NCBI GenBank assembly: GCA_001653155.1
Contig: BDEJ01000037.1
Location: forward strand, 1-64,000
DNA length: 64,000 bases
Direction: 5' to 3'
From: Porphyromonadaceae bacterium H1
GTDB taxonomy: Bacteria > Bacteroidota > Bacteroidia > Bacteroidales > Paludibacteraceae
Positions 3,915 through 45,464 of this stretch are shown here, piece by piece. The notes below the pieces were generated by a model. It did no database searches, was not told the DNA's origin, and worked only from the letters and a program-made list of their open reading frames with translations. Both the position numbers and the translations under genes were made by a program. Numbering within the stretch: position 1 is the first letter of the stretch; the number at the start of each line of letters is the position of its first letter.

Positions 3915-3945
3915 TTTGGAAGGTCGAAAAAAACATTTAACTTTG
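3915..3945 (+). promoter_or_regulatory. Promoter of the cobalamin uptake operon
   Basis: TTTG (3915-3918), a 19-bp spacer and TAACTTTG (3938-3945) together match the Bacteroidetes TTTG-N19-21-TAnnTTTG promoter. The expected transcription start is near 3950, so the RNA would begin almost exactly at the 5' side of the riboswitch. Confidence 0.75.
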
Positions 3946-3950
3946 CTGCG

Positions 3951-4213
3951 TTAATGTTTTGGTGCCGACTGCTCACAGTTTGCTTCGAGTAGGTCGGCGA
4001 AGAGGGAATCAGGTGAAAGTCCTGAACAGACCCGCTGCTGTAAACTCTATTCAACGTACCGAACAACACCTGTGCCACTGCCCTTTTACTTTTGAGTAAG
4101 AGCGGGAAGGCGTTCGGAGAACGGGAGTAAGTCAGAAGACCTGCCAAAACAACTTTGTTAGAAGCTTCCGGGGATTGAGGCTCGAAACGACAGATATGCA
4201 ACCCAAACATTAA
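3951..4213 (+). ncRNA. Cobalamin (B12) riboswitch
   Basis: The leader carries the cobalamin riboswitch core in order. TTTTGG at 3957-3962 forms the 5' strand of P1. The B12-box region runs from the GAGGGAATCAGGTGAAAGTC segment (4002-4021), through the CCCGCTGCTGTAA segment. GCCACTG is at 4074-4080. AAGTCAGAAGACCTGCC ends at 4145, with CCAAAA (4144-4149) closing P1. The switch lies between the promoter and btuB. Bacteroidetes B12 riboswitches normally shut off uptake genes when cobalamin binds. A second complementarity joins 3951-3963 to 4201-4213 (12 of 13 pairs), so the feature is drawn out to 4213 as a possible expression platform. A small hairpin and a GGAGG lie at 4237-4261, before the start codon. 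Confidence 0.93.
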
Positions 4214-4299
4214 AAGCAATGGGAATTTTCTTCCTACCTGTCTTTTATACAGGAAAGGAGGTCGTTTTCCGATATCCGATCGAGATTATTTTGTTTGCA

Positions 4300-6321
4300 A
4301 TGAAAAAAAGTATCGGAATCATTTTTCTTTTCCTGCCACTGCTATCAGTTGCGCAAGCCGACGCATCGGGAGTGCTAACCGACAGTATTCACCGCCTGCA
4401 AGAAGTAGAAATACGCGAAGAGGTACGGAATAGGGAGATTCGTTCGTCGGCACCTTTGCAGGTGTTGAACCGCGAGAAGCTCGACCGTTTAAACGCCTTG
4501 CAACTATCGGATGCTGTGAAATTTCTCTCCGGGGTATCCGTGAAGGATTATGGAGGTATCGGGGGGCTAAAAACAGTATCGGTACGCAGTCTCGGAGCCA
4601 ATCACACGGCCATTAGCTACGACGGCATACGACTTACGGACAATCAGACAGGACAGATAGACCTCGGACGTTTCTCGCTTGACAATGTGAACCTTGTGGC
4701 TCTCAGCGGCGGACAGAGCGACAACATATTCCGACCGGCACAACTCTTTGCAGCTGCCTCTACCCTCGATATACAAAGCAAACGACCTGAGTTCTCTGCC
4801 GAAAAGGCGACTTTAGCTAAGGTATCATTCAAAACAGGTTCTTTCGGATTGCTGAATCCCTCCCTCTACTTGGCTCAACGCTTGGGAAAGAGTTTCTCAA
4901 TCAGTTTGTCTTCGGAATACTTGAATGCGCACGGGAAGTATCCCTACATACTCGACTATGGCTTTGCCGGCAAGGACAGCAGCTCTCTGGAAATGCGTCA
5001 AAATACGGACGTACGTAATTTCCGCATCGAATCAACGCTCTTCGGGAAACTATCCGAAACTGATAACTTAGAAGCAGCTTTCTACTACTACGCTTCGGAA
5101 CGCGGATTGCCGGGACCCACGGTTTTCTACAATATAGACAATTTCTCTTCACAACGCTTGTGGGATAAAAGCATCTTCTTCCGAGGACGTTACCAGAAAG
5201 AGCTTTCGCAGCGTTGGGCCTGGCAAAGTCATTTAAAATACCAACTGAGTCCCTTACGCTATCTCGACCCGAGCTCGTTGAATGAAAAAGGCAAGGAGGA
5301 AAGCAACTACCTGCAACAAGAATATTACGCATCAACAGTCTTACTTTTCCGTGCCGGAAGGGGCTTCTCCTTCGCTGCCGCATCGGATCTGACATTTGCG
5401 AAACTGGAAGCAGACAGCTACAATTTTGTTTATCCGGAGCGTTTGACCTGGTTAGCGGTAGTGGCAGCCAAGTATAACAGCGAGATGTTACTGGCTACAG
5501 CCAGCTTACTGAACACCGTCGTTCGGGAAGCCGTACAAAGCGGTAGCGCCGGAAAAGATTACCACCGACTATCTCCTTATGCAAGCCTTGCCCTAAAACC
5601 TTTCAGTGAAATAGAGCTCCGTTTTAGAGCCTTCTACAAGCAAATTTTTCGCATGCCTACCTTCAACGATTTATACTATATGCGTATCGGTAACCCGAAA
5701 CTGCTTCCTGAGCAGACCGAACAGTTCAACATCGGACTAAGCTACAGCCTGAATCCCGGCGGTTTTTTATCTTCTCTATCGTTCACGGCCGATGCCTATC
5801 ACAATCGGGTGCACGATAAAATAGTAGCTGTTCCGAGGAAAGACATCTTCGTCTGGACGATGCTCAACTTCGGTAAGGTAGATGTAAAAGGCCTTGATTT
5901 GACGATAGAGACGCTCATCCGTCCGGCAAGAAAGTTGAAATTGGCCCTGAGTTACACACACAGCTACCAACGTGTTCTAAATCAAAGTAACCCGGGAGGG
6001 CTGGACTACGGACATCAGTTACCCTATACCCCGCGTGTATCCGGATCGGGGCGGGCCGCCTTGAAGACTCCCTGGGTAGAACTTGCCTACACTCTTCTCT
6101 GGTCGGGACATCGCTACATCATCGGACAGAACTACACCCTCAACCGCCTTGAGGGTTATAGCGATCAGAGTCTATCGCTCGCGCGCTCCTTTTCCCTCGC
6201 TGGTGGCATCATCAATCTGAGTGCCGAATTACTCAACTTAGCCGATGAGAATTACGTTGTTGTAAAGTACTTCCCCATGCCGGGGCGATCGGGACGCCTT
6301 AGCCTCAGTTACCGTTTTTAG
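4300..6321 (+). CDS. btuB: TonB-dependent outer membrane cobalamin receptor (BtuB-like)
   Basis: This is a TonB-dependent receptor of 673 residues under a cobalamin riboswitch and followed by a BtuG-like gene, so B12 (cobamide) import is the likely role. The signal peptide is KKSIGIIFLFLPLLSVAQA. A TonB-box-like LQEVEIRE comes next, then the plug domain (SDAVKFLSGVSVKDYGGIGG, VSVRSLGANHTAISYDGI). A 22-strand-type barrel follows, ending in an aromatic C-terminus (SLSYRF). An upstream in-frame ATG at 4219 would add 27 residues before the signal peptide, so I use 4300. The stop is 12 nt before the btuG-like start. Family assignment is firm; the substrate rests on context. Confidence 0.92.
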   Translation: MKKSIGIIFLFLPLLSVAQADASGVLTDSIHRLQEVEIREEVRNREIRSSAPLQVLNREKLDRLNALQLSDAVKFLSGVSVKDYGGIGGLKTVSVRSLGANHTAISYDGIRLTDNQTGQIDLGRFSLDNVNLVALSGGQSDNIFRPAQLFAAASTLDIQSKRPEFSAEKATLAKVSFKTGSFGLLNPSLYLAQRLGKSFSISLSSEYLNAHGKYPYILDYGFAGKDSSSLEMRQNTDVRNFRIESTLFGKLSETDNLEAAFYYYASERGLPGPTVFYNIDNFSSQRLWDKSIFFRGRYQKELSQRWAWQSHLKYQLSPLRYLDPSSLNEKGKEESNYLQQEYYASTVLLFRAGRGFSFAAASDLTFAKLEADSYNFVYPERLTWLAVVAAKYNSEMLLATASLLNTVVREAVQSGSAGKDYHRLSPYASLALKPFSEIELRFRAFYKQIFRMPTFNDLYYMRIGNPKLLPEQTEQFNIGLSYSLNPGGFLSSLSFTADAYHNRVHDKIVAVPRKDIFVWTMLNFGKVDVKGLDLTIETLIRPARKLKLALSYTHSYQRVLNQSNPGGLDYGHQLPYTPRVSGSGRAALKTPWVELAYTLLWSGHRYIIGQNYTLNRLEGYSDQSLSLARSFSLAGGIINLSAELLNLADENYVVVKYFPMPGRSGRLSLSYRF

Positions 6322-6333
6322 CCTTAGAGCAGT

Positions 6334-7428
6334 ATGAAACAGAAAATTGCATTAATCCTTGCCGCTACACTAAGTCTCGTTGCCTGCAACGACATGAAAG
6401 ATTTTGAACCGCAACGCGAATATCCGGCCGATGCGAGCCTCCGAAAAATATACATACTCAGCGAAGGTCTGTTCAACAATAATAACAGCCGTTTGGCGAG
6501 TTACGACTTCGGCATTGCCGATCCGAGTAAGCGTCTCGATACGGACATCTTCCTCACACGCAACAAGCGTGGACTGGGCGACACAGCCAACGACATGCAA
6601 CGTTACGGCAGCAAAATATACATTGTGGTGAACGTATCCAGCCAGATAGAGGTGATAAACGCCGAGACGGCCGAATCCATCAAACGCATCCCCTTCTTCA
6701 ACGAAGAGAACAAAGCCCGCCAGCCACGTTACATCGACTTTTACGAAGGAAAAGCTTACGTATGTTCCTTCGACGGCAGCCTCGCCCGAATCGATACTGC
6801 ATCACTTGAAGTGGAAGCTTTCACGCAAGTGGGACGAAATCCAGATGGGCTTTGCATCGCTAACCGAAAAATTTATGTGAGCAATTCCGGAGGTCTCGAC
6901 TTCCCCAATTACGACCGTACGGTATCGGTAGTTGATATCGACAGCTTCAAGGAACGTAAAAAAATAGAAATCGGCATGAATCCTTATAAAATACACGCCG
7001 ATAGTCAAGGCGACGTATACGTCGTTACACGAGGCAACTACGACGAAACGGGCTATGCCTTCCATAAAATCGACAGTGAGATAGATCGCAAAATACAAAC
7101 TTTCGATTCGTTGGCGGTGTACAACTTCGAAATACATGCTGATAAAGCCTACCTCTACAGTCACGACTTCTCTACGGGTCAAAATTGGATCAAAGTGTTC
7201 GACTGTCTCAGCGAAAGGGTTATCGACCATCGGTTCGTGAAGGACACAAGTCTTGTAATAAACACCCTCTATGGTCTCGCTATCAACCCCATCAACGGGG
7301 ACGTATATGCAATGGACGCACAAGGATTTTTTAACTGGGGAGACTTGCTCTGCTTCGACCCCACAGGCAACTTGCGTTATCGAATCAATCAGGTGGGCCT
7401 CAACCCCAATCACATCATTTTTTTCTGA
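6334..7428 (+). CDS. btuG: BtuG-like surface lipoprotein (DUF5074 beta-propeller)
   Basis: The 364-residue lipoprotein (lipobox LVAC, Cys at residue 18) resembles the seven-bladed YncE/DUF5074 propellers. In Bacteroides the BtuG members of this group bind cobalamin very tightly and sit as a lid on BtuB. Visible blade-like repeats include KIYILSEGLFNNNNSRLASY, KIYIVVNVSSQIEVINAET, KAYVCSFDGSLARIDT, KIYVSNSGG and DVYVVTRGNYDETGY. The product is 12 nt downstream of btuB and 43 nt upstream of the BtuH-like gene, so one riboswitch should control all three. It is probably anchored on the outer face of the outer membrane. Cobalamin binding is inferred from family and context. Confidence 0.88.
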   Translation: MKQKIALILAATLSLVACNDMKDFEPQREYPADASLRKIYILSEGLFNNNNSRLASYDFGIADPSKRLDTDIFLTRNKRGLGDTANDMQRYGSKIYIVVNVSSQIEVINAETAESIKRIPFFNEENKARQPRYIDFYEGKAYVCSFDGSLARIDTASLEVEAFTQVGRNPDGLCIANRKIYVSNSGGLDFPNYDRTVSVVDIDSFKERKKIEIGMNPYKIHADSQGDVYVVTRGNYDETGYAFHKIDSEIDRKIQTFDSLAVYNFEIHADKAYLYSHDFSTGQNWIKVFDCLSERVIDHRFVKDTSLVINTLYGLAINPINGDVYAMDAQGFFNWGDLLCFDPTGNLRYRINQVGLNPNHIIFF

Positions 7429-7471: not shown

Positions 7472-8602
7472 ATGAAAACTTACAAACAACTCCTACTCTT
7501 GCTGACAATCCTTGCAACAACTACAGGCCTTGCACAACGCTCCGAACAGATAGCTCGTGTCGTGGAATATCGCCCGGCGCCCGGGCAACACATCAACCGC
7601 CTCTTCCCTACTCCCGAAAAAAGCGAAAGCTATGAAAAGGCCCTGGCCTTTGCTCAGGAGCAATTAGTAAACAAACGCTTCATGCTCGGCCTCGGCAGCT
7701 TCGGAGGCTACGTTATCGTCGCCTTCGATCATCCTGTGGTGAACGTCAAAGGCCAATACGACCTTCGGGGAATGGGAAATGCTTTTGTGGGCAATTCGGA
7801 ACCGGGCGTAGTACTCGTCTGTCAGGATCGCAACAAGAACGGCAAGCCGGACCCCGAGGAAGATTGGTACGAATTAGCGGGAAGTGAATACAAGCACCCG
7901 CTAAGCATTAAAAATTACGAAATAACCTACTATCGGCCCAAACCCGACGGACAGAAAAAAAACATCCGCTGGACGGACAACCAGGGCGGAGAGGGAGAAA
8001 TACAGCATATTAGCTTTGCAACGCAGGCTAGCATGTATCCGCGCTGGATAAAGGAAGATCAAATCAGTTTTCGCGGCACAAAGTTACGCAACAACGCCCG
8101 GCAAACCGGAGGCTTCTGGAAACTCGAAGCCTTCGATTGGGGCTACGTGGATAATCATCCCAATACAGAATCGATCGAACGCACGGGGTTTAAGATAGAC
8201 TGGGCGGTAAATGCCCAAGGGAAAGCCGTACAGCTTGACTACATTGACTTTGTGAAAATACACACCGCCCAACTGCAAGAAGCCGGATCGCTGGGCGAAA
8301 CATCCACCGAAATCACAGGCATGATAGACCTGCATCCCAATGCCGACCTACATACTTACGACAATCCTCTTGCTGCTTCCAACAATCTCGTCGTGCGACA
8401 AGAGGGCGGATACATCAAACTTCAAAGCGACTATGCCATACGCCGCATCCATCTTAACGATCTCAGCGGCCGTCTCTGTATGGCCAACGAGGCACAAGAT
8501 GCTCTTGATATCAGGCAGCTTCCCGAAGGTCTCTACCTGATCCGCATCGAACTGGAAGGTGGCATTCAACTTGTCCGGAAAATACAAATAGGGAAACATT
8601 AA
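7472..8602 (+). CDS. BtuH-like extracellular protein with C-terminal T9SS sorting domain
   Basis: The 376-residue product has a type I signal peptide ending TTTGLAQ (residue 22) and no lipobox cysteine. The body resembles the cell-surface proteins encoded beside btuB and btuG in Bacteroides B12 loci (BtuH group). It includes a calcium-loop-like DRNKNGKPDPEED at 119-131 and a conserved WIKEDQISFRGTKL stretch. The last 80 or so residues look like a type A T9SS sorting domain: beta-strand pattern RRIHLNDLSGRL, then LDIRQLPEGLYLIRIEL and a terminal VRKIQIGKH. I infer export by T9SS rather than lipoprotein anchoring, and a role in capturing B12. The name BtuH is tentative. A strong terminator follows. 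Confidence 0.78.
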   Translation: MKTYKQLLLLLTILATTTGLAQRSEQIARVVEYRPAPGQHINRLFPTPEKSESYEKALAFAQEQLVNKRFMLGLGSFGGYVIVAFDHPVVNVKGQYDLRGMGNAFVGNSEPGVVLVCQDRNKNGKPDPEEDWYELAGSEYKHPLSIKNYEITYYRPKPDGQKKNIRWTDNQGGEGEIQHISFATQASMYPRWIKEDQISFRGTKLRNNARQTGGFWKLEAFDWGYVDNHPNTESIERTGFKIDWAVNAQGKAVQLDYIDFVKIHTAQLQEAGSLGETSTEITGMIDLHPNADLHTYDNPLAASNNLVVRQEGGYIKLQSDYAIRRIHLNDLSGRLCMANEAQDALDIRQLPEGLYLIRIELEGGIQLVRKIQIGKH

Positions 8603-8740: not shown

Positions 8741-8771
8741 TTGGGCAAAAGGCCTGTATATTGTATCTTTG
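8741..8771 (+). promoter_or_regulatory. Promoter of ispE
   Basis: TTGG near 8741 and TATCTTTG at 8764-8771, about 20 bp apart, fit the Bacteroidetes consensus. The box overlaps an in-frame TTG codon at 8761, which therefore cannot be the translation start. Confidence 0.65.
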
Positions 8772-13167: not shown

Positions 13168-14115
13168 TCAGTACTCCCAAACATCCATTTCGAAGTTCAA
13201 GAGTTCGGTTTCAATCCGGCTTTGCTCTTTTCTCACAAAAGCTTCAAATTTAGCAGGGTCAGATATCACCGAAGCATAGTTAAGCAACATACGATTGTAC
13301 ATATTGGAGTCTCCTAACAAATAGCTTGCATACAAATTTTGAGAGAAGAAATCATCAAAAGTCAAACGTTGTGTGTCGTTACCTCTCGGGATAATCATTT
13401 GCTTGGCTAAGAAAGGACGTAGCTCATCGAATATAATCCAACCCAAGATTGAATTTTGAAAATAGAGCATCGTATTTTCCGAATTTGCTTTGTTGTCCGG
13501 ATGTAAAGCATACAACGGAGCGATAGCCACAATCTTACTATACATACGCGAGTTGTGTTTATTAAAGAAAACAACCTCTTGTATTAAAAACTTAATTTGG
13601 TTTTTGACATAGTTCATATAGGCATTTTCCTCAATACGCCGGGTTTGAGTCAGGGTATCAACTTGTATCAAGTTATTTTCCCTTTCCTCGTCGTACATAA
13701 AAGCATCCGACAAATCGCCTCCTTCAAGTATTTGCGAATCATCAAAGGAAGGTTTCACATCCCGTGGATTCCTCCGGTACATATTAACTCCGTTTGTATC
13801 ATCACAAATCGCCTCCAAAATAACACGGAAAAGGCTTTTGTATTCGTCGTTGGGACGCGTCGGGAAATACAGCTGATAATTCTGCTTGTCCCGCATGTCA
13901 ATAATCCGGTAAACGGTTCTCGACCAAACAATATCATCGGCCCGGTGATTAATCACAGGTATCGTATCGGCCATAGCCGACATGGCTTCCGCCTGAAGAC
14001 TAATAATTCCCTTTTTATCGAAAAAAGGCAAGGGATTCTGTTGCGCTTGCGCCACGAAAGGGAGGAAGAAAAACAATCCCAAAATTTGAAAAACAAGACA
14101 TTTTCTCATATTCAT
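13168..14115 (-). CDS. porN: T9SS ring component PorN/GldN
   Basis: PorN forms, with the lipoprotein PorK, the periplasmic ring attached to the outer membrane in the type IX secretion system. The 315-residue product has a signal peptide (RKCLVFQILGLFFFLPFVAQAQ), then the GldN domain with DDIVWSRTVYRIIDMRDKQN and the IVAIAPLY and WIIFDELRPF segments typical of the family. ATGs at 14145, 14115 and 14109 are in frame. I use 14115, since the signal peptide begins there. It is the last gene of porP-K-L-M-N and the terminator follows. Confidence 0.93.
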   Translation of the reverse strand: MNMRKCLVFQILGLFFFLPFVAQAQQNPLPFFDKKGIISLQAEAMSAMADTIPVINHRADDIVWSRTVYRIIDMRDKQNYQLYFPTRPNDEYKSLFRVILEAICDDTNGVNMYRRNPRDVKPSFDDSQILEGGDLSDAFMYDEERENNLIQVDTLTQTRRIEENAYMNYVKNQIKFLIQEVVFFNKHNSRMYSKIVAIAPLYALHPDNKANSENTMLYFQNSILGWIIFDELRPFLAKQMIIPRGNDTQRLTFDDFFSQNLYASYLLGDSNMYNRMLLNYASVISDPAKFEAFVRKEQSRIETELLNFEMDVWEY

Positions 14116-14154
14116 ACTATTCTCTTTAATTCTGCAGTTAATCATTCAAAAAAA

Positions 14155-15687
14155 CTATAATTGAACTTGGATGGGAGGTAAGCTTCGCTGTTTTCCGTCC
14201 GGACCAACAGCTTTAATGCTTCTTATCAAGAGGAAGTCTCCCATTTCCATCTTCTGAATATCCGCCAGTTGTCTCGCAGTTAAGTTAGATCCACTGGCTT
14301 CTTTAGATCCAAAAGGCGTTACAACGGTGAAAGAAACAACATTAAATTTTGCTTTAACAAGTTCATCCTCCCCATAACTGGCAACTACCGCCACGTTTCC
14401 TTTCAGAGATCTTTTGGATAAGTTACCTTCCTGTATTTGCCGCACGATTCCTCCAGCATCAGCATATTGCAAGAAAGATTTCGGGTCCGGCAAATACTTA
14501 ACCCGATAGGGAGCACTTCCCATTTGCATTTCTTTTCCATCAATAAGCGCCCTGGTAATGATTCGAATCTCACCATCACGTGTCGGTCTTATTATATACT
14601 TACCGGGAGAGGTCATTTTTACGCTACCTCCATCCACTAAAACCGTCACCTTTTCGGGTGAAACTCCCGGAACTGATATACTAAAACGGTTATCAATACC
14701 TCGATATACGACATTCAGGTCTTCGTTTGATATTGTCGTGGAAGGCTCACCAACCACGTATTCATCCTGAAAAGGATATGTTTTAACATTACCATCATTA
14801 CCTCTGAAGGAAATGTAACCTTTATAGGGGAAGGTTCCGGTAGCGTTACATGCTACTTCGTAATTTCCATTGGGAACCGAAGCTCCTCCTACAAAATAAT
14901 CAGGTATCATGGTCGAGTCAACAGCAGAAAGAACAATTCTGGCAGTATATTTCCCTCCTTTTATCACATATTTACTATTGGGTACTACAAGCGCTTCAAT
15001 TTTATTCACCCTGAAATCCGAAGCATCGGTTTGCCCTTTCAGATACTGGAGGAGGTCAGCCTCTGCCGAACGAATGTCGCTCTGATATTTGGTCAGCATG
15101 GTTACTACGGCCGAAAGAGGCATCATTTCAAAAAGCGACGACTCCCAAGGCATGCCTTTCGTACTGCTCTCTGTAGAGAACACCTTCTCATACACTTGTT
15201 TTTTTGCAGAGTCATTAAGGGCCAATCCAATCAAGTATTCACGATATTCCTCAATCCTCTTTTTCAACTCTTTACCATGCCCTCCAACTAAAGCATATTC
15301 ACCAGCGACATCCAAATTGTCTTTCGCAACAATCTCTCTCGCATCAGGATCGGCATCACTGCCGTCCGCTAATTTCACCAAATTGGATTTAAAAGACTGA
15401 ATATAAGAGAAAAGAGAGTCTGATTTTTGCTTCAAACCGTTTGCTTTCTCCAACCATTCTCCGGTTTTAGCTTTGTTCTGATTGTATAAAAATTCAAAAT
15501 CATCGTAAAGTCCTTGGGTCCTTATTTCAGAAGATTTTATTGTTGAATGAAGGCTATTTTCAACCATAGTGAATCCATTCAGAATATCACTCGAAACATT
15601 CAGCGCCAACATAGCTGTCAACACCAAATACATCATCCCGATCATCTTCTGCCGCGGGGTTTCGGGACAGTTTTTTGCACCACTCAT
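14155..15687 (-). CDS. porM: T9SS inner-membrane/periplasmic shaft protein PorM/GldM
   Basis: PorM, with PorL, makes the proton-driven T9SS motor. One N-terminal membrane helix (KMIGMMYLVLTAMLALNVS) is followed by long periplasmic domains that reach the PorK/N ring. The 510-residue protein matches the family length. The opening ETPRQKMIGMMYLVLTAMLA block is nearly invariant in GldM. Several beta-rich domains follow, ending in the conserved C-terminal SIKAVGPDGKQRSLPPIQVQL region. It is 46 nt from porL and 39 nt before the porN ATG. Confidence 0.95.
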   Translation of the reverse strand: MSGAKNCPETPRQKMIGMMYLVLTAMLALNVSSDILNGFTMVENSLHSTIKSSEIRTQGLYDDFEFLYNQNKAKTGEWLEKANGLKQKSDSLFSYIQSFKSNLVKLADGSDADPDAREIVAKDNLDVAGEYALVGGHGKELKKRIEEYREYLIGLALNDSAKKQVYEKVFSTESSTKGMPWESSLFEMMPLSAVVTMLTKYQSDIRSAEADLLQYLKGQTDASDFRVNKIEALVVPNSKYVIKGGKYTARIVLSAVDSTMIPDYFVGGASVPNGNYEVACNATGTFPYKGYISFRGNDGNVKTYPFQDEYVVGEPSTTISNEDLNVVYRGIDNRFSISVPGVSPEKVTVLVDGGSVKMTSPGKYIIRPTRDGEIRIITRALIDGKEMQMGSAPYRVKYLPDPKSFLQYADAGGIVRQIQEGNLSKRSLKGNVAVVASYGEDELVKAKFNVVSFTVVTPFGSKEASGSNLTARQLADIQKMEMGDFLLIRSIKAVGPDGKQRSLPPIQVQL

Positions 15688-15733
15688 TGAATTGTAATAC
15701 TTTTTTAATTAGACACTACCACAACTTTCGAAA

Positions 15734-16627
15734 TTAGCTCAAGGAATTCAGCATATTTCCATATACCTGATTCAAGGCCCCTATTTGTTTTACCAATTGG
15801 GTAGTACCGTCTTTGTACTTTTCAGTTTCCTCGGCTATATTTTTCGTTGAAGTTCTAATCTTATGAACATTCTCAGTCAATCCGGCGAGTTCACTTGAAA
15901 CAATCCGGAAGTGTTCAGATTGTGCACTTAAAACTTCGGAATGAGATTGAATATTCTTTAACTGTATCTCATACAAGGAATTGATGGAAGATAAATTCCG
16001 GTTTATTCCATCTATTCTATCCGAATACTGTCTGGTATTTTTAACCACAGTATCTACATTTTCCCCTATCTCGTCGTAGGAGCTAGCGAGCTTCTGTGTC
16101 GATGCATTTAAGAGGCTTTGTAGCTTAACATAGCTGTCAGTAGCTCTCGAAGCCTCCGAAATATTCTTTGCAAAATCATTGGCTGGCCTTATAGCATCTG
16201 TCAAAACATTTAATTGTCGAGCCGTATCGGATAGGTTTTTAATGCCTTCGGAAAGACTCACCATATCTTCATCCTTCAAAGAATCCATTCTTCTCATGGA
16301 ACGTCCGTAAGAATCGGCCGTTTCAGAGGGTCTAAGAGCTGCCGCTCCGGCATTTAATGCTACGGGCTCTCCTTCCGATTTGAAATCGAATATTTTATCC
16401 CATTCGTATTCTTTATGAGGTTTGTCAAAAGCACCTAAAGCAAATAAAAGGGCCTCGACAGTCATCCCCAAACCAAGAATAAACCCAGCTCCCGGCAAGT
16501 GCAAAATCTTAAACATTGCTCCTATAATCACCACAGAAGCTCCCAAGCTATAAGCTACCCCGACAAAACGCTTCACAGAAGGGCTGTTCCACCAAATATC
16601 AAAACCTGCCTCTTTATTCTTTGCCAT
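15734..16627 (-). CDS. porL: T9SS motor protein PorL/GldL
   Basis: PorL is the inner-membrane proton channel and stator of T9SS. The 297-residue protein has two N-terminal membrane helices. TM1 contains GASVVIIGAMFKILHLPGAG and TM2 contains FILGLGMTVEALLFALGAF, with the conserved TM2 glutamate needed for energization in GldL homologues. A long cytosolic part rich in predicted coiled coil follows (residues about 100-297). It lies between porK and porM with short gaps. Confidence 0.95.
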   Translation of the reverse strand: MAKNKEAGFDIWWNSPSVKRFVGVAYSLGASVVIIGAMFKILHLPGAGFILGLGMTVEALLFALGAFDKPHKEYEWDKIFDFKSEGEPVALNAGAAALRPSETADSYGRSMRRMDSLKDEDMVSLSEGIKNLSDTARQLNVLTDAIRPANDFAKNISEASRATDSYVKLQSLLNASTQKLASSYDEIGENVDTVVKNTRQYSDRIDGINRNLSSINSLYEIQLKNIQSHSEVLSAQSEHFRIVSSELAGLTENVHKIRTSTKNIAEETEKYKDGTTQLVKQIGALNQVYGNMLNSLS

Positions 16628-16678
16628 ATAACATTTCTTTATAATTAAGTATAAAATTAATTGAGATCAAAGTTATTT

Positions 16679-18055
16679 TTATTCCCCATTATAGGAGCGA
16701 ACACAACGGAAGCCTATATAAGGGCGACTCTCATCCTGATATTCATAGGTTTTCACACCACACTGCAAATAGTAAGCAATGTCTTTCCAGGATCCACCTT
16801 TTATTATTTTTCGTTTTAAAATATCGGGATCGTCCTGTTTTGCGTTGTATTGGAATGTTGGGTTCATATCCAACACTAAGGTATTACTTGACACATAGAA
16901 AGCACTGGATGTCCATTCGGAGACGTTTCCGGCCATATCGTACAAACCATAGTCATTAGGAGCAAAAGATCCTACTTTCATCGTAGTAGCTCCCATGTCA
17001 TCGGTGTAACTTCCCCGCATAGGTTTGAAGTTAGCCAAGAAGCACCCTTTGTTATCTCTCACATAGTTACCTCCCCAGGGATACAAGGCAAGTTGTCGGC
17101 CACCTCGTGCGGCATATTCCCATTCGGCTTCTGTGGGAAGGCGGTATTGCTGCCCTTTGATTCTGTTGGCACTATTAAAAAAGTCCGAACGCCAGTTACA
17201 AAAAGCAGTAGCTTGATCCCAAGATACACCGACTACGGGATATTGCGCAAAGCCCGGATGCGAGAAGTACATCTTCATTTTGGGCTCGTTATAAGCATAC
17301 TGAAAATCTCGTATCCACATGATCGTATCCGGATAGATATTTACGATACGGGTGGAAATCAAGTCTCTACGATTTCTGAGTCTACGGATAATTGTTTCGT
17401 TTCGTATCACGCCATTCTCATCAACATAGGAGGTATCGATACGTACTCTGGCTCCTTCTTTATAGGAACCCGTGTTCACATCGTTTCGATTACCCGGCAG
17501 ACCTGCCTGCACATAGTCGATAGTCTGATAGCGATAACGCAACTTGGAGGGGTCCATCGTCCGATCAAGAGAAAGCGAATTCTGCCCATCAAAGTAAAGC
17601 TCAGATAAGATTTCTCTTTCTTGTTCGTCTTTGGAAGCCCAAGGAATTTTGGCTCGCCAATTGAGTCGTGCCACTTCAGGTGCAGCCGCTTGATTGTCAC
17701 CATTGCGGTCTTTCATGCGATATTCATCACGCCCTCCGATCACTAACAATCTGAGAGCTATCGAATCACGCACCCAGTTAACAAATTGTCGATACTCATC
17801 GTTAGTTATTTCCGTTTGATCCATCCAAAATGCATCTACCGTTACATTTACGGATTTATCGTTAGCAGATCCAATAGCAGATTGGTCGTTCTCGCCCATC
17901 ATAAAAGATCCACGGGGCACGAAGACCATCCCATACGGATTAGCTTCTTTAAATGTAGCATATCTGCCGGTACCAACCAACTCTCCTGCAGGTTTGTTGC
18001 AGGAAAAAAACAAAACAGTCGCAAAAAGGAAGATCCAATATTTCTTCATCGCCAT
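16679..18055 (-). CDS. porK: T9SS outer-membrane-ring lipoprotein PorK/GldK
   Basis: PorK is an outer-membrane lipoprotein that forms the T9SS ring with PorN. The 458-residue product has a lipoprotein signal (IFLFATVLFFSC, Cys at about residue 19). An FGE-sulfatase (formylglycine-generating-like) fold follows: MVFVPRGSFMMGEND, VTVDAFWMDQTEITNDEYRQ, YRLPTEAEWEYAARGG, YDMAGNVSEWTSSAF and YIGFRCVRS. The ATG two codons downstream is equally possible. Gaps of 51-54 nt separate it from porL and porP. Confidence 0.95.
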   Translation of the reverse strand: MAMKKYWIFLFATVLFFSCNKPAGELVGTGRYATFKEANPYGMVFVPRGSFMMGENDQSAIGSANDKSVNVTVDAFWMDQTEITNDEYRQFVNWVRDSIALRLLVIGGRDEYRMKDRNGDNQAAAPEVARLNWRAKIPWASKDEQEREILSELYFDGQNSLSLDRTMDPSKLRYRYQTIDYVQAGLPGNRNDVNTGSYKEGARVRIDTSYVDENGVIRNETIIRRLRNRRDLISTRIVNIYPDTIMWIRDFQYAYNEPKMKMYFSHPGFAQYPVVGVSWDQATAFCNWRSDFFNSANRIKGQQYRLPTEAEWEYAARGGRQLALYPWGGNYVRDNKGCFLANFKPMRGSYTDDMGATTMKVGSFAPNDYGLYDMAGNVSEWTSSAFYVSSNTLVLDMNPTFQYNAKQDDPDILKRKIIKGGSWKDIAYYLQCGVKTYEYQDESRPYIGFRCVRSYNGE

Positions 18056-18109
18056 TTGATTATATACTATACGTTTATTTATTTTATATCAATTTTTATC
18101 AAAAAACTT

Positions 18110-19078
18110 CTACAAAATTCGAATGCTTTTATATTTATTTTTTTGTTTTCCAAACACTAAATCAAACTCATAGCTTATAAAAAGCTCATGAGAGCCCCAA
18201 CCTCCAAGACGAGATATGGGAATATCAAAAGAGTATCCTAAATTTATCCCTCCGGTAATAGCCATTCCGGCCAACAAGACAACAGAGCTTTCATGCCTGT
18301 AAGTCAGACCGCCCCAATATTTCTCATCATATTCGAAAGTGCCGGAGAGGTCCACTTGCATCAAAGTAAAATCCGTTTTAAAAAGAGCACTTGGCTGCAG
18401 CACATATTTCGGGTTGGCCATCCGAAACTTATAGGCTGCCGTTGCATAAAGCGTACTTCGCAGGTTATAAGTCTGCACTTCCGTCCAGTATAAAGCCGGC
18501 TGGGTTAGATTCATATAAGACAAACCGGCAGAGAAGCGATCGGTAGCATACCACAAGCCCAGATTAATATCTAAAGCGCTTCCCTTCACATCCGAAGTCG
18601 GTATATAGCGGTCGCTTGCATCGTGATAAGCTCCAAAAGGTATGTCTTTCAAATTAACACTATCTCCTTTGAAACCTACGGTAACAAAGCCTACTCCGAC
18701 ACCAACACTTAAAGTACCTTGCATTATTTCCCGTTTATACGCATATTGCAGATGCCCACTCTGAAAATAATACAATCCGGCCTCATCTATCTTCACGCTC
18801 AATCCGGCTCCTTGGTTAAGTTTTTTCGAAAAGTTGAGCGGCGTGTTGACCGAAGCCAAGGTTAAATTCCCGGCATTACGAACACCGACCCAATTAAACC
18901 GATGCAACAGAGAAGCCTGAGTCATCTTTTTTTCTCCTGCCACCGCAGGATTTATTGACGGATACTGAAACATGTATTGGCTAATCTGCATCTCTGTTTG
19001 AGAAAATGCAGGTAATCCAACAGCAAAAAACAGGCCAAAAACAATCTTTTTCACGGCATTCTTACCTTCCCTACCCAT
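18110..19078 (-). CDS. porP: T9SS outer membrane protein PorP (PorP/SprF family)
   Basis: PorP/SprF proteins are outer-membrane beta-barrels that associate with T9SS and heads this operon as in Porphyromonas. The 322-residue product has a signal peptide ending at about LPAFSQ, then the signature ISQYMFQYPSINPAVAGE and LLHRFNWVGVRNAGN. Repeated amphipathic strands follow, and the C-terminus ends FISYEFDLVF before a short basic tail. The 145-bp region upstream (19079-19223) must hold its promoter. It is AT-rich, without an unambiguous -33/-7 pair. Confidence 0.93.
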   Translation of the reverse strand: MGREGKNAVKKIVFGLFFAVGLPAFSQTEMQISQYMFQYPSINPAVAGEKKMTQASLLHRFNWVGVRNAGNLTLASVNTPLNFSKKLNQGAGLSVKIDEAGLYYFQSGHLQYAYKREIMQGTLSVGVGVGFVTVGFKGDSVNLKDIPFGAYHDASDRYIPTSDVKGSALDINLGLWYATDRFSAGLSYMNLTQPALYWTEVQTYNLRSTLYATAAYKFRMANPKYVLQPSALFKTDFTLMQVDLSGTFEYDEKYWGGLTYRHESSVVLLAGMAITGGINLGYSFDIPISRLGGWGSHELFISYEFDLVFGKQKNKYKSIRIL

Positions 19079-31967: not shown

Positions 31968-31975
31968 TATCTTTG
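31968..31975 (+). promoter_or_regulatory. -7 box for porQ
   Basis: TATCTTTG lies 42 nt upstream of the porQ ATG at 32018. It overlaps an in-frame TTG at 31973 that would otherwise extend the gene, so it helps fix the start. The -33 is weak. Confidence 0.5.
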
Positions 31976-32017
31976 GGCCTCTTTTGCAAGCGTTACCGCA
32001 TATCGTTATTATTGAAG

Positions 32018-33073
32018 ATGTACAAAAAGAAAAAAATTATAATACTATCGGCCCTGGCTCTTTTACCGACGCTTTCGATCTTTTCGCAAGCAGGACATGG
32101 TGTGTATCAATTTTTGGACCTCCCCGTTTCGTCGCGTATGGCAGCTTTAGGAAGCTCCAACGTATCTTTGAACGACGGAGACCTGAATTTCGCCTTTATG
32201 AACCCGGCTCTTCTCTCGCAGCAAACGCATATGGATTTAGGTTTGAATGTGGCCAGTTACCTGGCTGACATCCGCTTTGGTTCGGCCATGTACGGTCATA
32301 GCTTCGGATCGAAGAACCACTGCGCAATCGGGATGCAATACGTTGACTACGGCCGGTTTCGAGGCTTCAACGAGCTGAATCAGGAGCGCGAGTCTTTTAC
32401 AGCCAAAGACTTTGCCATGAGTTTGGTCTACACCCGAACATTGACGGAACACCTCAGCATGGGAGCAAGTTTCAAACCCATAGCCTCCATTTTCGAACGT
32501 TATTCGAGCTTCGGCCTGGCATTCGATGCGGGTATCAACTACAACAATCCCCAACGGCAGTTTTCTGCCGGATTGGTATTTCGCAACCTCGGCAGGCAAC
32601 TAAAAGCATACCACGACGACGGCGAGAGGCAGCACTTCGAAGCACTACCTTTCAACGTACTATTTGGCTTCTCGCAACGTTTCAAGCATGCTCCTCTGCG
32701 CTTCTCCTTTACGGCACACAACCTCCAACAATGGGACTTGAGCTACCATTCGACCAACAAAGCCAATCAGTCTCTCTTCGGAGGAGGCGAAGTACGAGAC
32801 GAGAAGATAGGCTTTTTCGACATGCTCTTCCGCCATATGATTTTCGGCATGGAGTTTTTACCCGGAAAAAACTTCTACTTAGCAGCGGCTTACCACCACC
32901 GCCGCCAACAGGAAATGTCGATGAACGGATTCAAGAGCATGGCGGGATTTTCTTTCGGAGGAGGCATCAAACTCCATAAGTTCCAAATCGGGTTCGGGAT
33001 GACGCAGTTTCAAGTAAAAAACTTCTCTTACCAGTTTTCCATCAGCACTTCGCTGGGCGACTTCCGACTTTAA
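32018..33073 (+). CDS. porQ: T9SS-associated outer membrane protein PorQ
   Basis: PorQ is an outer-membrane beta-barrel of the FadL/PorV superfamily. In Porphyromonas it joins the T9SS attachment complex with PorU, PorV and PorZ. The 351-residue product has a signal peptide (IIILSALALLPTLSIFSQA), followed by the family opening GVYQFLDLPVSSRMAALGSSN and NLNFAF-type segment DGDLNFAFMNPAL. A strand-rich barrel ends in FSISTSLGDFRL. It is followed 5 nt later by cmk and then ispH and pfkA, an order I recall from Porphyromonas. Confidence 0.9.
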   Translation: MYKKKKIIILSALALLPTLSIFSQAGHGVYQFLDLPVSSRMAALGSSNVSLNDGDLNFAFMNPALLSQQTHMDLGLNVASYLADIRFGSAMYGHSFGSKNHCAIGMQYVDYGRFRGFNELNQERESFTAKDFAMSLVYTRTLTEHLSMGASFKPIASIFERYSSFGLAFDAGINYNNPQRQFSAGLVFRNLGRQLKAYHDDGERQHFEALPFNVLFGFSQRFKHAPLRFSFTAHNLQQWDLSYHSTNKANQSLFGGGEVRDEKIGFFDMLFRHMIFGMEFLPGKNFYLAAAYHHRRQQEMSMNGFKSMAGFSFGGGIKLHKFQIGFGMTQFQVKNFSYQFSISTSLGDFRL

Positions 33074-43292: not shown

Positions 43293-45464
43293 ATGAAAAA
43301 ACAGAATATACTGGCAGCTATCGTGATGATTATGCCTGTGCTGCTTTGGGGGCAAGCATTCGAAAGCGGGAAGATATCCCCTTACACAGAGCTAATACTC
43401 AATATGTATCACTCAGAAAAGGATTCGAAGAGTGGAAGCCTCTCGCCTATTCAAAAACGCGTACAAGCCTCCCGCAGCAATGCTTACGTACATGCTTTCG
43501 TAGAGCTGAACGAAGGTTGGTCGTTGAGCGAACTTGAGTCTTCCGGTTTGCACATTAACAGCATATTGGATAACAACATAGCCACCGCACAAATAGCTTT
43601 GCAGGACATAGCCGCAGCAGCAGCTCTGCCTTCGGTGAAACGTATCGAAGTAGGTAATCCGGTAAAAAGAAAACTCGATCGGGCACGGCCTGCAGCTTTC
43701 GTAAATGAGGTGCACGAAGGCCTCTTGCTTTCCAAAGCTTTCAGAGGGAAGAATGTAGTGATAGGCATTGTGGACGAGGGGTTTGAGTACGATCATATAG
43801 CCTTTTACAACGACACCGGAAAAAGATTCCGGGTAAAGCGGGTTTGGAATCAGAACCGCAACGGAAACAGTCCGAAGGGCTTCAGTTACGGAACGGAATA
43901 CAGCGACTCGACATCTATTGTAAAAGCCTCTTTCGACAACTTAATAAGCACACACGGCACCCACGTGGCCGGTATCGCTGCAGGAGCCTACCGAAACCAA
44001 TCTCTGCCTTATTACGGCATAGCCGACGAGGCCGATATCGTATTGGTGAGTTACAAGAGAGACGACAATACGAGCAACCAAGCCAGCTTGATCGATGCGA
44101 TAAAATACGTGTACGATTACGCCGCCTCGGTGGGTAAGCCTGCCGTAGTGAATCTGAGCCTCGGTTCACATATCGGGCCTCACGACGGAAGCTCCCTCTT
44201 CGACCGCGCCGCCGACAACCTGCAAGGCCCGGGAAAACTGCTCGTAGGGGCAGTAGGTAACGAAGGACGGGAAGAGATACACGTCGAGAAGCATTTCCTA
44301 TCGACAAGCGATACTCTTAGAACCTTTCTCGAAAGCTACAATTCCATTGATTTTCAAGGTTTTGCCGAAATATGGGGGGATGTAGATAAGAGCTTCAACA
44401 TCCAGGTCGCTCTTTACGACTTGAAAACACATAAATACGTTTACAAAACCGGGAATCACACGGCAACACGCTCACAGAAAAAGGATTACAGCATTAACGA
44501 TACAAAATTACAAGTTTCAGGTAATGTCCTTGTATTTACCGAACGTAATCCCGGAAATCGTAAAGCCAATGCTTACATATACACCGAGTTTCAGGATTTT
44601 CCCAAACACCTGGCTGTAGCTTTGCTTATAAGTTCGGCGGAGGGCAAAGTGCACGCATGGGCTTCCCCCGAGGAAACCTATTTCACCAATCATAACATCA
44701 ACGGATGGGAAACAGGCAACGGACAATATTCCATGAGCGAAGTGGGGGGAACAGGAAAGAAGATTATCTCCGTGGGAGCCTACATCACACGTGGACACTC
44801 GAGTCTTTTGGGAAAGCTGGCTTCTTTTTCAAGTCAAGGGCCAACCACCGATGGACGTTTGAAGCCCGACGTAAGTGCACCGGGAGTAGGAATCATAGCA
44901 CCTTATTCCTCAAGCAAAAAATTGTCGAGTGAGAGTAGCATTACACTAAAGGGCAGAACTTATTACTACGGCAGGATGGACGGGACTTCGATGGCAAGCC
45001 CTTTTGTAGCAGGAGTACTGGCCACTTGGTTGGAGGCTGCACCGACTCTGACCCCCGACGACGTCCGGCAATTGCTTCGAAGCGCCGCCATCTCCGATGC
45101 ACAAACCGGCAATATTCCACCGAAAGGAAGTAACGCATGGGGAAGAGGAAAAATAAATGCTTGGGAAGGTCTGCGTGAGATGACCAGGACCAGCGATATG
45201 CTTATCGGAGAGCGATTCGTCTATCCTCCCTCCATAGCATGGAACGAAGAGGATCTCAGTTTCAACTTCACCTACGAAGACAAGGAAGTAGAGCTTGTCC
45301 TATACGACCTCAAGGGAGTGCGTCATGCACAGAGCAACTTCGAAAGCATCGGCCCGAACCTGAAATACCGCATCGACAATCATACTTGGATACCCAAAGG
45401 ACTTTACATCATACAAGTCAAGGGGAAACGACGTAATTTTGCCTACAAAGTCTACGTACGTTGA
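43293..45464 (+). CDS. Secreted subtilisin-like (S8) peptidase with T9SS sorting domain
   Basis: The 723-residue protein has a signal peptide (ILAAIVMIMPVLLWGQA) and a propeptide-like region to about residue 140. The S8 catalytic triad is Asp161 (VIGIVDEGFEYDH), His221 (STHGTHVAGIAAG) and Ser566 (DGTSMASPFVAG). A roughly 180-residue insert separates the VGNEG oxyanion region from SFSSQGPT. The last 80 residues look like a type A T9SS sorting domain (ELVLYDLKGVRHA, then WIPKGLYIIQVKG and a basic AYKVYVR end). I infer export by T9SS and attachment to or release from the cell surface. Possible roles are protein degradation for nutrition or processing of other surface proteins. Confidence 0.93.
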   Translation: MKKQNILAAIVMIMPVLLWGQAFESGKISPYTELILNMYHSEKDSKSGSLSPIQKRVQASRSNAYVHAFVELNEGWSLSELESSGLHINSILDNNIATAQIALQDIAAAAALPSVKRIEVGNPVKRKLDRARPAAFVNEVHEGLLLSKAFRGKNVVIGIVDEGFEYDHIAFYNDTGKRFRVKRVWNQNRNGNSPKGFSYGTEYSDSTSIVKASFDNLISTHGTHVAGIAAGAYRNQSLPYYGIADEADIVLVSYKRDDNTSNQASLIDAIKYVYDYAASVGKPAVVNLSLGSHIGPHDGSSLFDRAADNLQGPGKLLVGAVGNEGREEIHVEKHFLSTSDTLRTFLESYNSIDFQGFAEIWGDVDKSFNIQVALYDLKTHKYVYKTGNHTATRSQKKDYSINDTKLQVSGNVLVFTERNPGNRKANAYIYTEFQDFPKHLAVALLISSAEGKVHAWASPEETYFTNHNINGWETGNGQYSMSEVGGTGKKIISVGAYITRGHSSLLGKLASFSSQGPTTDGRLKPDVSAPGVGIIAPYSSSKKLSSESSITLKGRTYYYGRMDGTSMASPFVAGVLATWLEAAPTLTPDDVRQLLRSAAISDAQTGNIPPKGSNAWGRGKINAWEGLREMTRTSDMLIGERFVYPPSIAWNEEDLSFNFTYEDKEVELVLYDLKGVRHAQSNFESIGPNLKYRIDNHTWIPKGLYIIQVKGKRRNFAYKVYVR

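Follow-up and report, generated by a model that had tools for sequence, protein, structure and literature searches.

A BtuH-type protein of a riboswitch-fronted cobamide operon as a probable type IX secretion cargo

The window, a 64,000-nucleotide stretch of DNA, contains a riboswitch-fronted cobamide operon whose third gene probably encodes a cobamide-capture protein of the BtuH kind, with a type IX secretion system (T9SS) sorting domain replacing the lipid anchor of its characterised relatives. This is in essence what a sequence-only reading had proposed; profile searches, structure predictions and a survey of homologues bear out most of that proposal, with the exceptions given below.

The operon and its neighbourhood

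The genes are arranged in the order riboswitch, btuB, btuG, btuH (Table 1), as the earlier reading had it, with gaps of 12 bases between btuB and btuG and 43 bases between btuG and btuH. The next gene on the same strand encodes a GHMP kinase (at 8761), which we take to be ispE-like. The btuB-like open reading frame matches TIGR01779 with an E-value of 2.4e-25, under the equivalog cut-off, and an in-frame ATG at 4300, chosen by eye, is its likelier start. The btuG-like product matches PF16819 and aligns with residues 22–373 of PDB entry 8blw, chain B (phmmer E 1.8e-93). In the genome as a whole there is a single FecCD permease, and PF02310 is matched over its cut-off by two proteins, presumably MetH and methylmalonyl-CoA mutase; this set suggests that the organism probably uses cobamides.

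Table 1. Window coordinates of the operon, of the parts of the BtuH-like protein and of the T9SS genes
Feature	Position	Strand	Evidence or remark
Cobalamin riboswitch, 5' of operon	3943..4162	+	RF00174 101.3 bits, gathering score 31.5
BtuB-like TonB-dependent receptor	4219..6321	+	PF00593 and PF07715 over cut-off
BtuG-like surface lipoprotein, lipobox LVAC at Cys18	6334..7428	+	phmmer, PF16819, lipobox by rule
BtuH-like protein with type A T9SS sorting domain	7472..8602	+	376 residues
Signal peptide I, residues 1–22, no cysteine	7472..7537	+	cleavage site by eye, ...GLAQ; read from sequence
BtuH (cobamide-binding type) domain, residues 25–290	7544..8341	+	phmmer to 8blw_B and 7biz_A; domain HMM; Foldseek
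Linker and T9SS type A sorting domain, residues 296–376	8357..8599	+	HMMs, folds, Foldseek
porN/gldN	13168..14145	-	TIGR03523 146 bits, cut-off 85.9
porM/gldM	14155..15687	-	TIGR03517 391 bits, cut-off 180
porL/gldL	15734..16627	-	TIGR03513 147.2 bits, cut-off 68.3
porK/gldK	16679..18055	-	TIGR03525 546.7 bits, cut-off 350
porP/sprF family	18110..19078	-	TIGR03519 192.1 bits, cut-off 90.55
porQ	31973..33073	+	NF033711 362.3 bits, cut-off 220

A BtuH domain behind a cysteine-free signal peptide

The identity of the main domain is clear. The protein matches residues 398–660 of 8blw_B with a phmmer E-value of 1.2e-72, and its residues 28–288 match residues 222–492 of 7biz_A (BtuH2) with an E-value of 2.9e-60, so that homology extends over the whole domain of about 265 residues. 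Among PDB sequences searched up to an E-value of 10 there was only one further match, 1vef (E 1.5), which is noise. The comparison of predicted structures that the earlier reading had asked for agrees, as BtuH-domain structures occupy Foldseek ranks 1–3 for the full-length model, itself a weak one (pLDDT 56.3, from an alignment of 6 rows).

BtuH2 (BT_1956, PDB 7biz, Bacteroides thetaiotaomicron) shows that this domain binds B12, and its gene accompanies btuB and btuG under the control of cobamides (PMC8941943, in part). The window protein resembles BtuH2 in the homologous domain and in the company of btuB and btuG, but lacks both its N-terminal PKD/Ig domains and its predicted lipoprotein signal, and, unlike BtuH2, ends in a T9SS domain. 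In BtuG1 (also BtuGH; BT_1490, PDB 8blw) a BtuH-type domain is fused to a propeller in a single two-domain lipoprotein (PMC10404256, in part). The phmmer matches to 8blw imply that the window's BtuG corresponds to the propeller half of BtuG1 and its BtuH to the H-domain half; what is one lipoprotein in BtuG1 is thus two proteins with differing export signals in the window. BtuH1 (BT_1488), too, is described as having no additional N-terminal domain (PMC8941943, in part), but it is listed as carrying a lipidation signal (PMC12751083, in part).

The N-terminus of the window protein, MKTYKQLLLLLTILATTTGLAQ, reads as a Sec-type signal, judged by eye from the sequence; the signal region is free of cysteine and has no lipobox, as had been noticed before, and so differs from the lipoprotein export signal of B. 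theta BtuH2. A lipoprotein signal is a trait of the known members and not of the domain, and the name "BtuH lipoprotein" should not be given to this protein.

The tail is a T9SS-type sorting domain

The C-terminus, ...LPEGLYLIRIELEGGIQLVRKIQIGKH, fits the type A sorting domain that the sequence-only reading had described, and the profile check suggested there gave a divided answer. Both curated profiles score below their cut-offs (TIGR04183, 18.8 bits, E 0.0012, cut-off 23; PF18962, 19.6 bits, E 0.0011, cut-off 27), and the type B profile TIGR04131 gave no match at E ≤ 10 in the NCBIfam scan. Scanning the genome with TIGR04183 at E ≤ 1 returned 68 matches, 52 over and 16 below the cut-off, the window BtuH being the best of the 16 at 21.4 bits; this threshold is permissive, as matches at E ≤ 1 in 13 of 14 control genomes show, one of these genomes being over the cut-off. 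A lineage HMM, built from 40 other C-terminal domains (CTDs) of the same genome (one of them PorU's own and several near-copies), scores the tail at 39.7 bits, inside the range of leave-one-out scores of its 40 members (22.5–102.2). When the same tail was shuffled 1000 times the highest score was 9.7 bits, so that we reject a chance match, and among 88 other long frames of the window one reached 23.4 bits (43293–45464) and the next 5.0.

Structure prediction points the same way. The last 85 residues alone, modelled with AlphaFold2 without an alignment, form a seven-stranded, Ig-like domain (pLDDT 81.5) with strands between residues 307 and 373, and the full-length model contains the same domain, divided from the BtuH domain by a floppy, low-confidence linker at residues 288–304. 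In a Foldseek search against 350,542 PDB chains, the CTD entries of RemA, RemZ and RgpB take the top three places, with NucA (eighth) and the mirolase CTD (fifteenth) lower down; E ≤ 0.001 is reached by just the top two matches, and DUF3244 Ig-like chains rank fourth and seventh. The tail thus shares its fold and profile family with type A cargos, among them the adhesin RemA and the protease RgpB. Given that it folds alone behind a linker and that T9SS CTDs are its best structural matches, we reject the notion that it is an integral part of the BtuH domain; neither this nor a failure to match any sorting profile, the two outcomes named beforehand as fatal to the idea, was found.

Eight full-tailed relatives, picked non-randomly among those to which the lineage HMM gives at least 36.9 bits, were scanned with NCBIfam, and all eight pass TIGR04183; the score of the nearest relative, which is 59% identical, is 40.2 bits. 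Two short-tailed relatives gave no TIGR04183 match. The last residues of the window protein, KIQIGKH, are unusual compared with the KFIKK-type ends of relatives.

Lipobox and sorting tail nearly exclude each other among homologues

Within the family 119 of 200 genomes contain a match to the window BtuH, and within the order 65 of 295 do; the classes used below rest on a fetched part of these matches. In the fetched loci 146 open reading frames match the domain, 136 of them distinct; 131 were kept in the table and tree after removal of four open-ended rows (L018, L048, L081_+6745 and L174_+4024) and one in which no signal was found (L181).

The earlier reading had proposed checking whether a lipobox goes with the missing tail, and this contrast is pronounced. 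Of the 69 tail-less proteins in the first set of 131, 61 have a lipobox under a fixed rule, and the eight misses resemble lipoboxes by eye; the rule fires in 3 of 42 proteins with a CTD of at least 15 bits, each of which has a plausible signal I site too, and in none of the 20 whose tails are short or weak (Fisher 1.8e-18, tail-less vs CTD, a descriptive value as the rows are related). In a second draw of 40 less similar matches, for which the lipobox search extended two residues further, a lipobox was found in 21 of the 22 tail-less proteins and in none of the 12 with a CTD; 34 of the 40 loci were used, leaving out L223 (a 20-residue tail with a lipobox) and five open-ended rows. Pooled, a lipobox is found by rule in 82 of 91 tail-less vs 3 of 54 CTD-bearing homologues, and the two features thus appear nearly mutually exclusive among the classified sequences. 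A scan of genome contigs yielded five loci, all tail-less.

Counting both sets, CTD-bearing BtuHs (lineage HMM at least 15 bits) fall under 18 family codes of the order. Predicted T9SS export is therefore a widespread second route and no quirk of this lineage, to which the earlier reading had tied it, and the word "piracy" used there goes beyond the findings. Judged by its predicted cargos, the T9SS route commonly stands in for lipidation among BtuH-type binders across the order. A tree of the 131 domains requires 12 changes among the three classes (quick method, direction not set), and the T9SS label changes at least nine times (four changes forced by branches of at least 95; 38.6 in shuffles). 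In the tree L012, L013, L042, L057 and L170, with full-length tails scoring under 15 bits, are labelled T9SS, whereas in the lipobox count they stand among the short or weak tails. The window protein groups with nine others in a clade (SH-aLRT 99) whose members all carry T9SS-type tails. The tree suggests that the family switched between the two export routes several times.

Two variants of the C-terminal region deserve mention. A third class of BtuH (L164, L166, L165, L100, L092, L169, L172 and L026; mostly genus code g21, in T9SS-positive genomes) has signal I, no lipobox and a tail of about 37–51 residues with ends like NGQLVIERNGCMYNLLGQEV, possibly a shortened or different sorting signal; L164, the member tested, gave no TIGR04183 match. 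In L241–L257, from other families in the second draw, a signal-I BtuH of about 475 residues has some 90 extra residues between the BtuH domain and the CTD, and in L180 the extra stretch holds a Big_2 domain.

T9SS genes and the apparent dependence of the tail on T9SS

Five T9SS core genes (13168–19078), all over their NCBIfam cut-offs, lie 4.6–10.5 kb from btuH, and the genome also encodes PorU (1111.8 bits) and PorV (501.1 bits), both over cut-off. The proximity had been taken as a sign of a link. The distance itself is confirmed; its significance we reject, because in the single-contig relative G024 BtuH (C1:1662020) and gldM (C1:1916607) are about 254 kb apart, and nearness is probably a coincidence. 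In eight other near relatives, G048, G051, G121, G101, G002, G139, G185 and G104, the two genes are on separate contigs, which is weak evidence given that these are drafts.

Presence of the machinery is a different matter. GldM (TIGR03517) is matched in 101 of 111 BtuH genomes, in 100 over the cut-off. GldM-positive genomes hold 52 tail-less, 45 T9SS and 15 short-tailed classified rows, and GldM-negative genomes hold 12 tail-less rows and one T9SS row (G017, a MAG that is 88% complete); a further T9SS row comes from G056, where only a GldM fragment is present, and a 5'-cut CTD row from GldM-negative G088 (93% complete) was excluded from the count. In the eight near-complete GldM-negative genomes all 12 BtuHs are tail-less, nine with a lipobox by rule and three by eye; a check of such homologues had been proposed in the earlier reading. 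T9SS-positive genomes, too, often have tail-less lipoprotein BtuHs, and tail-less and tailed forms coexist in eight genomes. Since GldM-negative genomes have tail-less BtuHs and GldM-positive genomes have both kinds, T9SS looks necessary but not sufficient for a tailed BtuH.

Elsewhere in the window, the frame at 43293–45464 (+) encodes a subtilase-like protein of 723 residues with a type A CTD below cut-off (TIGR04183 16.4 bits, lineage HMM 23.4 bits).

Proposed route and alternatives

We propose that, when cobamides are scarce, the riboswitch would permit expression of btuB-btuG-btuH. BtuG would be lipidated and sit on BtuB as a lid, and BtuH would pass the inner membrane via Sec, after which its CTD would be taken by the T9SS (PorV, the translocon and the PorLM motor). 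PorU would probably cleave the CTD and attach BtuH to surface A-LPS, where it would bind cobamide and hand it over to BtuG/BtuB.

The last steps could differ. It is conceivable, if rather doubtful, that BtuH is exported and cut by the T9SS and then released, to the medium or on vesicles, as a diffusible and unanchored cobamide carrier: T9SS cargos may be either released or anchored (PMC10202324, in part) and cobamide binders of B. theta are enriched on vesicles (PMC12751083, in part), but the presence of PorU and PorV in the genome fits anchoring.

A second alternative, which we regard as improbable, is that the T9SS cargo binds cobamides poorly or prefers another cobamide or corrinoid through changed corrin contacts. 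Of the eight B12-contact residues named for BtuH2 (with a chain-number offset of 100 deduced from the Y-W and W-L pairs), three are changed (H476 to Ala, Y510 to Phe, W577 to Ser), but five are kept (Q333, N399, F401, W511 and L578), Q333 and N399 being conserved in all 47 T9SS-class rows, and Y510 and W577 vary in BtuH2 homologues too. Position 476 is His in 65 of 69 lipoprotein-class and 34 of 47 T9SS-class rows; the nine other members of the window clade share the Ala/Gly, which argues, with the retained riboswitch-fronted operon, against loss of binding. Because three of eight contacts differ and Ala/Gly at 476 is clade-wide, altered affinity is possible; cobamide binding by the window BtuH is nevertheless the likely prediction, though perhaps retuned. 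The window clade as a whole (L006–L015, without L016 onward), with Ala/Gly in place of the corrin contact His476 and invariant Q333 and N399, possibly has a changed cobamide preference.

It is very improbable that the protein simply ends in an ordinary Ig-like domain with no sorting role and stays in the periplasm: the sub-cut-off curated scores, the unusual last residues and the DUF3244-type folds would allow it, but T9SS CTDs top the fold search, relatives pass TIGR04183, and it would go unexplained why lipobox and CTD so rarely occur together and why tails are missing from the eight near-complete GldM-negative genomes.

BtuG, DUF4465 and a possible wider T9SS layer

At 13 loci with a CTD-type BtuH (the window and 12 others) the neighbouring BtuG has a lipobox, by a slightly looser rule at 12 and by eye at L075. 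With BtuG lipidated and BtuH CTD-bearing, two surface routes are used within one operon. Among nine further BtuH-CTD loci a cobalamin riboswitch lies directly upstream in six; at the other three the available stretch starts inside btuB or just before btuG.

The DUF4465 proteins BtuJ1 and BtuJ2, of another fold than BtuH, are cobamide binders of B12 loci (PMC12751083 and PMC13398666, both in part), and some relatives carry DUF4465 as a fusion partner behind the BtuH domain. Homologues of about 615 residues were at first wrongly regarded as BtuG-BtuH fusions; the domain scan gives BtuH plus DUF4465. Among ten homologues with long tails or high CTD scores, DUF4465 follows BtuH in eight, all signal-I proteins (L012, L013, L015, L034, L073, L074, L183 and L086), and L034, L073, L074 and L183 also pass PF18962. 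Such fusions may be single T9SS cargos with two cobamide sites. Across the family, 31 DUF4465 frames at 30 loci comprise 23 with a lipobox (by the same looser rule), five with a CTD and three with neither. DUF4465 proteins are described as lipoproteins, and those that are not as having "periplasmic targeting signals" (PMC13398666, in part); if our reading holds, lipobox-free B12 binders should not be taken as periplasmic.

More speculatively, and with a good deal of doubt, many Bacteroidales may have a second, T9SS-based layer of cobamide capture, in which BtuH, DUF4465 (BtuJ-type) proteins and BtuH-DUF4465 fusions would be exported beside the lipoprotein lid BtuG, anchor and tail would have been exchanged repeatedly, and some cargos would be diffusible or vesicle-borne, like siderophores. 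We met no vitamin binder among T9SS cargos in the literature searched. The words "vitamin" and "cobalamin" are absent from the T9SS cargo review PMC10202324, and none of the listed PMC papers (a set that leaves preprints and most subscription papers outside) brings BtuH, BtuG or DUF4465 together with the export of a B12 binder by the T9SS; PMC12578637 and PMC9723704, which mention T9SS alongside B12 terms, draw no such link in the parts of their text covered. If the proposed route of BtuH is correct, the T9SS would contribute to vitamin uptake, the BtuBGH model would gain a second mode of presenting its capture protein, and it becomes testable what benefit a B12 binder on LPS, or set free, has over one with a lipid anchor. 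The repeated exchanges in one domain family would also offer natural pairs for studying swaps of surface export route in Bacteroidota.

In the window's genome the sole DUF4465 lies in a frame of about 1650 residues (L214:7021-11964, -), directly before a TIGR04183 CTD (36.2 bits); the 5' end of the frame is near the contig end, so that it may be incomplete, and no riboswitch was found within the 12 kb examined. In G024, a DUF4465 protein with signal I and a CTD of 29.2 bits (L216:7135-8376, +) directly follows the CTD-type BtuH in a riboswitch-fronted operon.
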